Assembly: GCA_027061845.1 (NCBI GenBank)
Contig: JAMOVS010000037.1
Span: 1-56,377, forward strand
Direction: 5' to 3'
Source of the DNA: Thermaceae bacterium
GTDB taxonomy: Bacteria > Deinococcota > Deinococci > Deinococcales > Marinithermaceae
Length of the DNA: 56,377 nucleotides
Below, in pieces: positions 3,750 to 33,357 of the stretch (position 1 is its first letter; every line of letters begins with the position of its first letter). The notes under the pieces are model-generated. The model was not told the DNA's origin, did no database searches, and worked only from the letters and a program-made list of their open reading frames with translations. A program made the position numbers and the translations under genes.

Positions 3750-4899
3750 CCGAAACGTCTTCTGGAAGGAGCTTCTGAGCTTTCTACGGGACCGCCGGAC
3801 GCTTTTTAGCCAGGTGCTCCTGCCCTTTTTCCTGATGCCCTTCTTCATGTTCGCCCCCGGCTACCTGGTGGAGCGGCTCAGCCAGCAGACCGCCGCCGAG
3901 GTCCAGAAGGTGGCGGTGAAGGGGATCCCCGCCGAGCTCGAGGAGGCGCTCTCGAAAGCCGGGCTCTCGGTCTTCCCGGACCCCGACCCCGCCCGGGCGG
4001 TGCGCGAGGGCCGCGCCGACGCCGGCCTGGTCTACGACGGGCGGCGCTTCGTCCTCTACCTGAAGCTGGCCCAGGAGGGGATGCGGGCCGAGGTGCTCCG
4101 GGGCCGGATCCGGGCGGTGCTCGAGGACTACAAGACCCGCCTGGTGGAGCGCCGGCTCGCCCAGGCGGGGCTCGATCCCAAGGTGCTCGAGCCCTTCTCC
4201 GTCGAGGTCGCCGACGTCTCCCCGCCCAAGGCCCAGGGCACCAGCGTCTTCGCCTACCTGGTGCCGATGATGCTCCTGATGTTCATCCTCTCGGGGGCGA
4301 TGCCGGTGGTCACCGACGCCACCGCCGGCGAGAAGGAGCGGGGCACCCTCGAGGTCCTGCTCGCCACCCCCACCACCCCCCGGGAGATCCTCCTGGGCAA
4401 GGCGGCGGCGGCGATGGTGGCGGCGTTGCTGTCCACCGCCAGCGGCATCGGTGGCTTGCTGCTGGGCGGGGCGGTGGCCGCCCGCTACGCGGAGAGCCCC
4501 GAGCTGGAGGCGTTTTCCTTCCGCCTCGGGGCCGAGGCGCTTTGGGCCACCTTCGTCACCGGGGTGCTCTTCGCCGCCTTCGCGGTGGGGGTGATGATCT
4601 TCCTGGGCATGCTGGCGCGCTCCTACCGCGAGGCCCAGACCTACATGGGGTTCCTCTACATGGCGCTGGTGCTGCCGGCGGTGCTGGTGGGGATGGCCTC
4701 GAGCTTCCTCGAGCCGACGCCGGCCTACTACCTGATCCCGGTGGCCGGGCCGATGATGCTTCTGGACGCGGTGTTTCGCGCCAAGGCCGACCTGCTCGCC
4801 TACCTCTTCGCCTGGGGCTCGACCCTGCTTTACGCCGCCCTCGCCCTGGGGCTCGCCGCCTGGGCGTTCTCGCGGGAAGAGATCGTCTTCAAGAACTAG
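3739..4899 (+). CDS. ABC-2 type permease, NatB-like
   Basis: The 386-residue membrane protein has one N-terminal membrane segment (about residues 20-40), a large extracytoplasmic region of some 140 residues, and about five C-terminal membrane segments. The sequence DATAGEKERGTLEVLLATP around residues 190-210 is the hallmark of NatB/ABC-2 permeases. ATG 3739 overlaps the ATPase gene by 11 nt, so the two form one exporter. No terminator follows; the ilv promoter starts one base after the stop codon. Confidence 0.87.
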   Translation: MPPSRNVFWKELLSFLRDRRTLFSQVLLPFFLMPFFMFAPGYLVERLSQQTAAEVQKVAVKGIPAELEEALSKAGLSVFPDPDPARAVREGRADAGLVYDGRRFVLYLKLAQEGMRAEVLRGRIRAVLEDYKTRLVERRLAQAGLDPKVLEPFSVEVADVSPPKAQGTSVFAYLVPMMLLMFILSGAMPVVTDATAGEKERGTLEVLLATPTTPREILLGKAAAAMVAALLSTASGIGGLLLGGAVAARYAESPELEAFSFRLGAEALWATFVTGVLFAAFAVGVMIFLGMLARSYREAQTYMGFLYMALVLPAVLVGMASSFLEPTPAYYLIPVAGPMMLLDAVFRAKADLLAYLFAWGSTLLYAALALGLAAWAFSREEIVFKN

Positions 4900-4900
4900 C

Positions 4901-4929
4901 TTGACAGCCGCCCCCAGCGGTTCTAGAAT
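4901..4929 (+). promoter_or_regulatory. Consensus sigma-70-type promoter of the ilv-leu operon
   Basis: A perfect -35 TTGACA (4901-4906), a 17-bp spacer and a -10 TAGAAT (4924-4929) give the strongest promoter seen in the window. The expected transcription start is about 4936-4937. That leaves only some 3 nt before the leader-peptide ATG at 4940, so the leader transcript would begin almost at its first codon. Confidence 0.85.
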
Positions 4930-4939
4930 CGCCGGCAAG

Positions 4940-5020
4940 ATGCCGTTCGCGACCGGTGGTTCCCTCGTCCTAGGCCTAGTACTCATTACCGGCCCGGGGG
5001 CGGGGGTCGCGCGCGTTTAA
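4940..5020 (+). CDS. Branched-chain amino acid leader peptide (ilv attenuator)
   Basis: This 26-codon ORF starts at ATG 4940 just downstream of the ilv promoter and ends with TAA at 5018-5020. Codons 9-16 (4964-4987) encode Leu-Val-Leu-Gly-Leu-Val-Leu-Ile: seven of eight are branched-chain residues, and some use CTA or GTA codons that are uncommon in the surrounding genes. A terminator hairpin follows at 5036-5069. The arrangement matches leader-peptide attenuation known for ilv and leu operons of other bacteria: ribosome stalling at these codons when charged tRNAs are scarce would favour antitermination. Translation is inferred, and no Shine-Dalgarno site is possible if the transcript starts near 4937. 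Confidence 0.78.
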   Translation: MPFATGGSLVLGLVLITGPGAGVARV

Positions 5021-5035
5021 AGAGAGCGGCATCCC

Positions 5036-5069
5036 AGGTCCCCGGGAAGACCCCGGGGACCTTTCGTTT
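5036..5069 (+). terminator. Attenuator: intrinsic terminator in the ilv leader
   Basis: A perfect 11-bp stem pairs AGGTCCCCGGG (5036-5046) with CCCGGGGACCT (5052-5062), with a 5-nt loop, followed by TTTCGTTT. A competing pairing is available: 4993-5001 (CCCGGGGGC) can pair with 5038-5046 using one G-U pair, which would destroy the left arm. A ribosome stalled on codons 9-16 of the leader peptide would leave 4993-5001 free. A ribosome at the leader stop codon would cover it and let the terminator form. The terminator itself is clear; the switch is inferred. Confidence 0.8.
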
Positions 5070-5083
5070 AGGGGAGGCGGGAG

Positions 5084-6766
5084 ATGACGGGAGCAGAGGT
5101 TCTTTTGGAGGCGCTGGTCCGGGAGGGGGTCGAGGTCATCTTCGGCCACCCCGGGGGCGCGATCATGCCGGTCTACGACGCGCTGTATCGTCGGCGGGAA
5201 CTCAGGCACGTGCTCACCCGGCACGAGCAGGGGGCGGGCCACGCCGCCGCCGGCTACGCCCGCGCCAGCGGCCGGGTGGGGGTGGTGATGGCGACCAGCG
5301 GGCCCGGGGCGTTGAACCTGACCACCGCCCTGGCCGACGCGATGATGGACGCGACGCCGCTCGTGGCCATCACCGGCCAGGTGCCCACCACCGCGGTAGG
5401 CACCGACGCCTTCCAGGAGGCCGACGTCACCGGCGTGACCATGCCGATCACCAAGCACAACTACCTGGTCGCCGAGGTCAACGACCTGCCCCGGATCGTG
5501 AAGGAGGCCTTCTACATCGCCAAGACGGGGCGCCCCGGTCCGGTGCTCATCGACCTCCCCAAGGACGTGCAAAACGACGAGTTCACCGGCGGTTTCCCGG
5601 AGGCGATCGACCTCCCCGGCTACCGGCCCACCTACAAGGGTCACCCGCGGCAGATCGAGCGGGCGCTGGCGGCGCTCTCGAAGGCCCGGCGCCCGGTCCT
5701 GATGGTGGGCGGGGGCGCCCAGCACGCCGCCGAGCCCATCCGCCGCTTCGTCGAGACCACCGGCATCCCCACCATCGCCACCCTGCAGGGGCTCGGGGTG
5801 GTGCCGGCGGACGACCCCCGTTTCCTGGGGATGCCGGGGATGCACGGCACGGTGGCCGCCAACCGGGCCATCCACGAGGCCGACCTGATCCTCGGGATCG
5901 GGCTCCGCTTCGACGACCGGGTGACCGGCGACGTGGAGCGCTTCGCCCCCAACTTGAAGACCCTGATCCACGTCAACATCGAGCCCGCCGAGATCGGCAA
6001 GGTGATCGAGGCCCAGATCCCGGTGGTGGGGGACGCCGCCTGGGTGGCCGAGCGGCTGGCGGAGGGGGCCCGGCCCCTCGAGATCGCCGACTGGTGGCAG
6101 CAGATCCGCCGCTGGCAGGAGGAGAACCCGCTGCCCTTCCCCGACGACGGCGAGCTCCGCAGCCAGGCGGTGATCCGGGCCTTCGGCCGGGCCACCGGCG
6201 GCGAGGCGGTGGTGGTCACCGGGGTGGGCCAGCACCAGATGTTCGCGGCCCAGTTCTACCCGGTGAAAAAGCCCCGGAGCTTCATCAGCTCGGGGGGGCT
6301 CGGCACCATGGGCTTCGGCCTGCCGGCGGCGATCGGGGCCCAGGTGGCCAGGCCCGAGGAGACCGTGATCCTCTTCGACGGCGACGGCTCCTTCCAGATG
6401 ACGCTGCAGGAGCTGGCCACCATCAAGAAGTTCAACCTGCCGGTCAAGATCGTGCTCTTGAACAACGGCTTTCTCGGCATGGTGCGGCAGTGGCAGGACC
6501 TCTTCTACGAGGACCGCTACAGCGAGGTCTTCCTCGACGACTCCAACCCCGACTTCACCAAGCTGGCCGAGGCCTACGGCATCCCTGCCTTCGCAGTGGA
6601 GCGGCGGGAGGAGCTGGAGGAGGCGGTTCGGCGGGTGCTCGCCGAAGAGGGCCCGGTGCTGGCCGAGTTCCGGGTCAAGCCCGAGGAGGGGGTCTACCCC
6701 ATGATCCCGGCCGGCGGCAGCGCCGAGGACATGATCACCAAGCCCCCGAAGGAGGCGCGGGCATGA
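5084..6766 (+). CDS. ilvB: Acetolactate synthase, large (catalytic) subunit
   Basis: This 560-residue ThDP enzyme condenses two pyruvates, or pyruvate with 2-oxobutyrate, in the first common step of valine, leucine and isoleucine synthesis. The catalytic glutamate is E48 in RHEQGAGHAA. The C-terminal third holds the ThDP/Mg motif, from GDGSF to the pair NN about 28 residues later. The ATG at 5084 is preceded by GGGGAGGCGGG. It is the first structural gene after the attenuator, and its stop overlaps ilvN by 4 nt. Confidence 0.96.
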   Translation: MTGAEVLLEALVREGVEVIFGHPGGAIMPVYDALYRRRELRHVLTRHEQGAGHAAAGYARASGRVGVVMATSGPGALNLTTALADAMMDATPLVAITGQVPTTAVGTDAFQEADVTGVTMPITKHNYLVAEVNDLPRIVKEAFYIAKTGRPGPVLIDLPKDVQNDEFTGGFPEAIDLPGYRPTYKGHPRQIERALAALSKARRPVLMVGGGAQHAAEPIRRFVETTGIPTIATLQGLGVVPADDPRFLGMPGMHGTVAANRAIHEADLILGIGLRFDDRVTGDVERFAPNLKTLIHVNIEPAEIGKVIEAQIPVVGDAAWVAERLAEGARPLEIADWWQQIRRWQEENPLPFPDDGELRSQAVIRAFGRATGGEAVVVTGVGQHQMFAAQFYPVKKPRSFISSGGLGTMGFGLPAAIGAQVARPEETVILFDGDGSFQMTLQELATIKKFNLPVKIVLLNNGFLGMVRQWQDLFYEDRYSEVFLDDSNPDFTKLAEAYGIPAFAVERREELEEAVRRVLAEEGPVLAEFRVKPEEGVYPMIPAGGSAEDMITKPPKEARA

Positions 6767-7277
6767 AGCAACGTCACCTGGTCAGCGTTCTGGTCGAGGA
6801 CCACCCCCGGGTGCTCACCCGCATCACCTCGATGTTCGCCCGCCGCGGCTTCAACATCGACTCGCTGGCGGTGGGCCGGACCCACCTGCCGGGGGTGAGC
6901 CGGATCTCGTTCGTGGTCGAGGGCGACGACCGCACCATCGAGCAGGTGGAAAAGCAGCTCAACCGCCTGGTCGAGGTGCTTAAAGTCGTGGACCACACCG
7001 GGCCCCGGCTGGAGCGCGAGCTGGCGCTGGTCAAGGTGCGGGTGGAGGGAATCGAGGAGCGGCTCGAGCTCAAGGAGATCGCCGACGCCTTCCGGGCCCG
7101 CATCGTCGACGTCGCCCGCCACGCCCTCACCTTCGAGGTGACCGGGCACCCGGCCAAGATCGACCGCTTTTTGGAAGAGCTTTCGAACTACGGCGTGTTG
7201 GAGACGATGCGCACCGGGGCGGTGGCGATGGACCGGGGCGAGCGGGTGATTAAACTGAAACCCCGAAGGGAGGCGGT

Positions 7278-7281
<4 letters not shown>
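6763..7281 (+). CDS. ilvN: Acetolactate synthase, small (regulatory) subunit
   Basis: The 172-residue protein carries an N-terminal ACT domain (about residues 5-78, starting [17 protein letters not shown]) and a C-terminal ACT-like domain typical of IlvN/IlvH. It activates IlvB and confers feedback inhibition by valine. ATG 6763 overlaps the ilvB stop as ATGA, and its own end overlaps ilvC the same way, so the three genes are translationally coupled. Confidence 0.95.
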
Positions 7282-9812
<2,531 letters not shown>

Positions 9813-9816
<4 letters not shown>

Positions 9817-32964: not shown

Positions 32965-32988
32965 CAAAACCGGGCCCGAAGGCCCGGT
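32965..32988 (-). terminator. Intrinsic terminator of rnpB
   Basis: On the minus strand, ACCGGGCC and GGCCCGGT form a perfect 8-bp stem around a stable TTCG tetraloop (32988-32969), followed directly by a short T run (TTTTGC with the last stem base). It lies immediately after the 3' end of RNase P RNA and separates it from the dcw promoter. Confidence 0.85.
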
Positions 32989-32989
32989 C

Positions 32990-33357
<368 letters not shown>

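Follow-up and report, generated by a model that had tools for sequence, protein, structure and literature searches.

The window analysed here is a stretch of 56,377 nucleotides from a Thermaceae bacterium (GenBank contig JAMOVS010000037.1). It contains an operon for branched-chain amino acid synthesis whose four genes were confirmed as ilvB, ilvN, ilvC and leuA. The original prediction, made from the sequence of this region, was that the DNA in front of ilvB houses a leader-peptide attenuator. The elements on which it relied were all recovered (Table 1). The promoter and the ATG that follows it were found by direct reading, as was a 26-codon ORF with a Leu-Val-Leu-Gly-Leu-Val-Leu-Ile run at positions 9-16; an 11-bp terminator with a T-rich tail and a competing 9-bp pairing, which includes one G-U pair, were also present. 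Two further helices, P1 and P2, had been overlooked, and the mechanism considered below uses both. With these two additions, the attenuator reading was largely upheld by comparison of 95 homologous loci.

Table 1. Features read or predicted in the ilvB leader region and the downstream operon (window positions)
Feature	Position	Strand	Details
-35 element TTGACA	4901-4906	+	adjoins the stop codon (4897-4899) of an upstream ABC-transporter-type ORF
-10 element TAGAAT	4924-4929	+	17-nt spacer to the -35 element
P1, 5′ strand GAUGCCGUUC	4939-4948	+	G, start codon and next 6 nt; pairs with 5024-5033
Leader ORF MPFATGGSLVLGLVLITGPGAGVARV	4940-5020	+	ATG 4940-4942, 26 codons, TAA 5018-5020; homologues in 95 loci
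P2, 5′ strand	4962-4971	+	inside the control codons; pairs with 4997-5006; inner helix 4973-4976 with 4991-4994
Control codons CTC GTC CTA GGC CTA GTA CTC ATT	4964-4987	+	codons 9-16, LVLGLVLI; CTA at 4970-4972 and 4976-4978, GTA at 4979-4981 (codons 11, 13 and 14)
Antiterminator, 5′ strand CCCGGGGGC GGGGG	4993-5006	+	4993-5001 with 5038-5046; extension 5004-5006 with 5033-5035
P1, 3′ strand GAGCGGCAUC	5024-5033	+	between leader stop codon and terminator
Intrinsic terminator	5036-5062	+	11-bp stem 5036-5046/5052-5062, 5-nt loop; T-rich tail 5063-5069
ilvB, acetolactate synthase large subunit	5084-6766	+	Shine-Dalgarno-like GGGGAGG upstream
ilvN, acetolactate synthase small subunit	6763-7281	+	start codon deduced from the 172-aa protein
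ilvC, ketol-acid reductoisomerase	7278-8291	+	
leuA, 2-isopropylmalate synthase	8284-9816	+	

A promoter next to the leader start codon

A promoter scan of 600 bases returned a single site, matching 11 of 12 consensus positions, against a mean of 0.0 sites in shuffled sequences. Transcription is expected to start at about position 4937, 7-8 nt after the -10 element, which would leave a 5′ untranslated region of ca. 3 nt (AAG-AUG). No Shine-Dalgarno site would be possible for the leader ORF in such a transcript. The stop codon of the upstream ABC-transporter-type ORF lies directly before the -35 element (4897-4906). Since that ORF ends right at the promoter, readthrough from upstream would yield a leader that is not leaderless.

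ilvB was found in 105 of 111 Deinococcota genomes, and 95 leaders were parsed from the regions upstream of it. The -35 element was TTGACA in 92 of them and TTGACG in the other three. The distance between the -10 element and the leader start codon was 7-12 nt over all 95 loci (a few leader starts were set by eye from the promoter): Thermaceae and the window's family have 9-12 nt, most often 10, clade f5 has 7-9 nt, and clades f2/f3 have 7-10 nt. Nearly all leaders in the first two groups carry CAAG immediately 5′ of the start codon. GTG is the start codon of 12 leaders. A Shine-Dalgarno-like match is present upstream of ilvB in 91 of the 95 loci; the absence of such a site is therefore specific to the leader.

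A terminator follows the leader stop codon and precedes ilvB at every one of the 95 loci. The leaders vary in length from 16 to 36 codons, and the position of the start, the rare codons and the order of stop codon and terminator are kept. Thus, attenuation of branched-chain amino acid synthesis, with a leader started near the transcript 5′ end, is probably conserved throughout the Deinococcota, as judged by comparison of these sequences. A search of the 111 genomes with covariance model R1 retrieved the ilvB leader; its other matches were weak hairpins rich in GC. Six of the weaker matches were considered as further leaders and rejected, as none had a short ORF at promoter spacing.

Rare leucine and valine codons in the leaders

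In four genes of the window, CTA and GTA make up 1.4% and 1.3% of their synonymous codons, respectively, and the leader ORF carries two CTA codons and one GTA codon within its control region. The presence of a Leu/Val/Ile codon run was checked in the homologous leaders: CUA was found in 94 of 95, and nearly all are rich in Leu, Val and Ile codons. Codon usage in leaders was compared with that in ilvB for 31 genomes in which ilvB was full-length. CTA accounted for 53% of leucine codons in leaders and 0.7% in ilvB (odds ratio 150, p ~3e-81, a value that counts codons over related genomes and not independent events, since the sequences are related). GTA usage was 30% vs. 2.3%, and that of ATT 41% vs. 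11%. Overall, 49% of Leu, Val and Ile codons in leaders end in A or T, as do 11% of those in ilvB, a much larger shift than that seen for other amino acids (21% vs. 10%). The fraction of Leu, Val and Ile residues was 0.40 in leaders and 0.24 in ilvB.

Some f5 leaders (L153, L154, L158, L163, L166 and L169) contain few Leu, Val or Ile codons; each of them keeps the usual promoter spacing, a single CTA and a terminator. Control in these leaders may be different.

Alternative helices and the modelled switch

The leader RNA (4937-5069) folded with an energy of -74.9 kcal/mol (z = -5.2), and none of 200 shuffled sequences was as good. The free fold consists of P1, P2 and the terminator, and in it, P2 locks the antiterminator strand. 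Alignment across families was too uneven to treat P1 and P2 in all clades at once, and we therefore folded the clades apart. P2 stood above shuffled sequences in nearly all leaders of the window's family, all Thermus leaders and most Meiothermus-type leaders; the test was not significant in f5 (3 of 27) or f2/f3 (0 of 7). Thermus leaders pair CCCUA in the control region with UAGGG close to the stop codon, as would be expected if, within an attenuation mechanism, the rare CUA triplets were kept for P2 pairing and not as control codons. We consider this unlikely, since CUA is also present in the f5 and f2/f3 leaders, where P2 did not reach significance, and since GUA and AUU are enriched too.

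The antiterminator, formed by the leader 3′ end and the 5′ arm of the terminator, was examined by swapping partners between leaders. Own partners paired better than swapped ones: none of 2000 permutations was as good, either in the phylum as a whole or within the window's family, and 1 of 2000 was in f2/f3; in f5, the signal was weak (368 of 2000). For P1, own energies were equalled by 0 of 2000 permutations in the phylum, 0 of 2000 in the window's family and 2 of 2000 in its genus. When Thermaceae were taken alone, 1573 of 2000 (P1) and 1099 of 2000 (antiterminator) permutations were as good, values that are uninformative, since the sequences barely vary there.

P1 also showed covariation. 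In alignment A1, 88.9% of P1 cells pair, and four of eight pairs have changed on both sides. The covariation score of P1 and the terminator, 0.146, was higher than in any of 500 shuffles (mean 0.099) or in any slid register, where it reached at most 0.084. Compensatory pairs are GAUGCCG:CGGCAUC in the window and GAUGCGC:GCGCAUC in Thermus, with GAUGUCGC:GCGGCAUC as a further example, and the GUG-start lineages L132 and L133 have GGUG opposite CACC. GCGCAUC or CGGCAUC is kept in the P1 3′ segment of most Thermaceae and relatives from the window's genus. The shuffle test was passed by 6 of 7 leaders of the window's genus, 19 of 26 of Thermus and 7 of 17 of the Meiothermus type. Elsewhere it was mostly not significant (4 of 27 in f5, 1 of 7 in f2/f3 and 0 of 6 among the remaining members of the window's family). 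P1 was absent from the consensus fold of the window's genus, in which three of the seven sequences were out of register at this helix. P1-like pairing was seen in single f5 lineages, namely L153 (GUGAACCG:CGGUUCAC, where the equilibrium fold favours another hairpin), L174 and L175. Since most f5 leaders fall below significance, we claim P1 for Thermaceae and the window's genus only.

To model the switch, we folded a transcript that stops after the 5′ arm of the terminator, in which ca. 31 nt were masked as the ribosome footprint; equilibrium folding of this shortened RNA gives a rough approximation of folding during transcription. In Thermus, mean antiterminator pairing was 0.01 in free RNA, 0.72 with a ribosome at the first CUA and 0.00 with a ribosome at the stop codon, while P1 pairing was 0.99, 0.0 and 0.95, respectively. 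For Thermaceae, the model therefore yields both steps of the switch, with the antiterminator favoured by a stalled ribosome and disfavoured by one at the stop codon. In the window, antiterminator pairing was 0.0 in free RNA, 0.77-0.81 with a ribosome on the CUA codons and 0.59 at the stop codon; the mean for the window's genus at the stop codon was 0.45, so that the antiterminator is not shut out in the model. Modelled free RNA of f2/f3 leaders prefers the antiterminator (0.62).

The ribosome geometry originally proposed thus held in part. If the usual footprint of ca. 15 nt to either side of the P site is assumed, a ribosome stalled at codons 11, 13 or 14 of the window leader ends before 4993 and leaves the antiterminator strand free. 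A ribosome at the stop codon covers this strand in Thermus, but not in the window, where it spans ca. 5000-5030, leaving 4993-5001 mostly exposed. High temperature combined with very GC-rich stems, previously noted as unusual, is not a difficulty: the modelled switch was nearly unchanged at 65 °C.

The strongly terminating fold of the ribosome-free RNA, the link that P1 makes between the decision and the moment of initiation, and the scarcity of Leu, Val and Ile codons in some f5 leaders would also suit a leader that is mainly a constitutive terminator with a translated upstream ORF, in which ilvB expression is set by the general supply of ribosomes and not by branched-chain amino acids. For such sensing, an enriched and well-placed CUA, at which a stalled ribosome frees the antiterminator strand, would be needless, and this makes the explanation very unlikely. 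The compact and conserved P1/P2/terminator fold might suggest a metabolite-binding riboswitch or a leader bound by a protein, the ORF being incidental. This is extremely improbable, given that leader length varies while start position, rare codons and the order of stop codon and terminator stay constant, and that no Rfam family reached its gathering score at the leader in a search of the window and the leader (the best weak match scored 18.5 bits, compared with 106). The search also returned a full-length match to the bacterial class A RNase P RNA at 32985-33356 on the minus strand.

Proposed mechanism and relation to known leaders

We conclude that the region upstream of ilvB is very probably a ribosome-mediated transcription attenuator of ilvBNC-leuA whose leader peptide is begun on a near-leaderless transcript. 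A ribosome would load the start codon at the transcript 5′ end while RNA polymerase is still within the leader. Shortage of charged Leu-tRNA (especially the species that decodes CUA) or of the GUA-reading Val-tRNA would stall the ribosome at codons 11-14. In this position it would hide the 5′ strand of each of the helices P1 and P2, so that the G-rich stretch closing the ORF would pair with the terminator 5′ arm, and ilvB would be transcribed. When amino acids are plentiful, the ribosome would reach the stop codon, and the terminator would form. In the window's genus, exclusion of the antiterminator at this point would require either a steric block imposed across the ribosome or its rapid release followed by refolding. 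If no ribosome loads, P2 would lock the antiterminator strand and P1 would clamp the start codon to the segment before the terminator, again leading to termination. P1 would also bar later ribosomes from loading the finished leader.

Attenuators of this general kind are well known. The enteric leucine operon has a leader peptide with rare CUA leucine codons and alternative terminator and antiterminator structures, and enteric leaders have a normal 5′ untranslated region with a Shine-Dalgarno site. Compared by description, the Deinococcota leaders share the CUA control codons with the enteric leucine attenuator and differ in the 5′ untranslated region. Within the phylum, Tsubouchi et al. (J Biol Chem, 2005) reportedly described a leader-peptide attenuator for the lysine cluster of Thermus thermophilus; that system likewise has a leader peptide with control codons and a terminator, and differs in responding to lysine instead of branched-chain amino acids and in its short leader of 12-15 codons.

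A close likeness is to the ilvBNC attenuator of Corynebacterium glutamicum, which serves the same operon with a Val/Ile/Leu-rich leader peptide, a terminator, an antiterminator and an anti-antiterminator. There, the leader ATG is one nucleotide from the transcript start, so that no ribosome binding site is present (Morbach et al. 2000, as given in PMC11857589), and hairpin H1 is proposed both as the anti-antiterminator and as a shield of initiation. In the Deinococcota, the shield would be split between P2, which involves the control codons and the antiterminator strand, and P1, which joins the start codon to the post-stop segment; shielding of the start region by P1, a structure of the anti-antiterminator type, is significant only in Thermaceae, the window's genus and isolated lineages elsewhere. 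The control codon kept in the Deinococcota is CUA, a rare one, and the comparison with C. glutamicum is one of descriptions. A leaderless leader also precedes ilvB of C. diphtheriae (PMC5784534), and leaderless, cysteine-rich small ORFs of mycobacteria were proposed as attenuators (PMC4633059); the latter are likewise enriched for the amino acid of the operon and differ in using cysteine codons. In view of these precedents, neither the mechanism nor the leaderless start is new. The lack of a Shine-Dalgarno site, which had been singled out as unusual, is conserved across the loci but has its counterpart in C. glutamicum. New here are the phylum-wide ilvB member, P1 in its present form and the near-universal CUA. 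We found no description of a Deinococcota ilv attenuator in the literature, including PMC2965389 and PMC4833913, although this absence is weak evidence, as most subscription papers lay outside the search.

Similar arrangements were seen when four genomes were searched with the pattern TTGACA-N16..18-TANNNT-N6..10-ATG, with one or two members of each downstream gene family checked. Short promoter-spaced leaders with Lys-Lys codons, of the same type as in the lysine cluster attenuator and followed by terminator-like hairpins, precede homocitrate synthase-type genes in all four genomes (L190 (1500 onward, G000:C10), L192, L201 and L213; MARFAKKSGAGGAT, MAWLAKKLSAGG, MKYREAKKLYAGGAG and MLALEKKLGRRGVG). 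Promoter-spaced leaders with Tyr, Phe or Trp codons precede DAHP synthase genes in three (L191, L202 and L207; e.g., MRTYGRYFGFYYPAGGALRSA), and short basic leaders with a hairpin precede LysJ/ArgD-type transaminase genes in two (L205 and L214; MKALKPRKPEVRGKP and MAARGKT).

In Thermaceae and the window's genus, the start codon is itself part of the P1 helix, and leaderless initiation requires an unobstructed 5′ end, so that leader translation might be possible only in the brief time before the pre-terminator segment is made. We tentatively suggest that the ilvB leader there may act as a sensor that works once, responding to a ribosome that initiates during transcription, and that such leaderless attenuators may serve several amino acid pathways across the Deinococcota. 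The ilvB leader offers a compact system in which to study the timing of leaderless initiation relative to transcription, in organisms that include well-studied thermophiles, and it carries a clear prediction, namely that one rare leucine codon would be the sensor.
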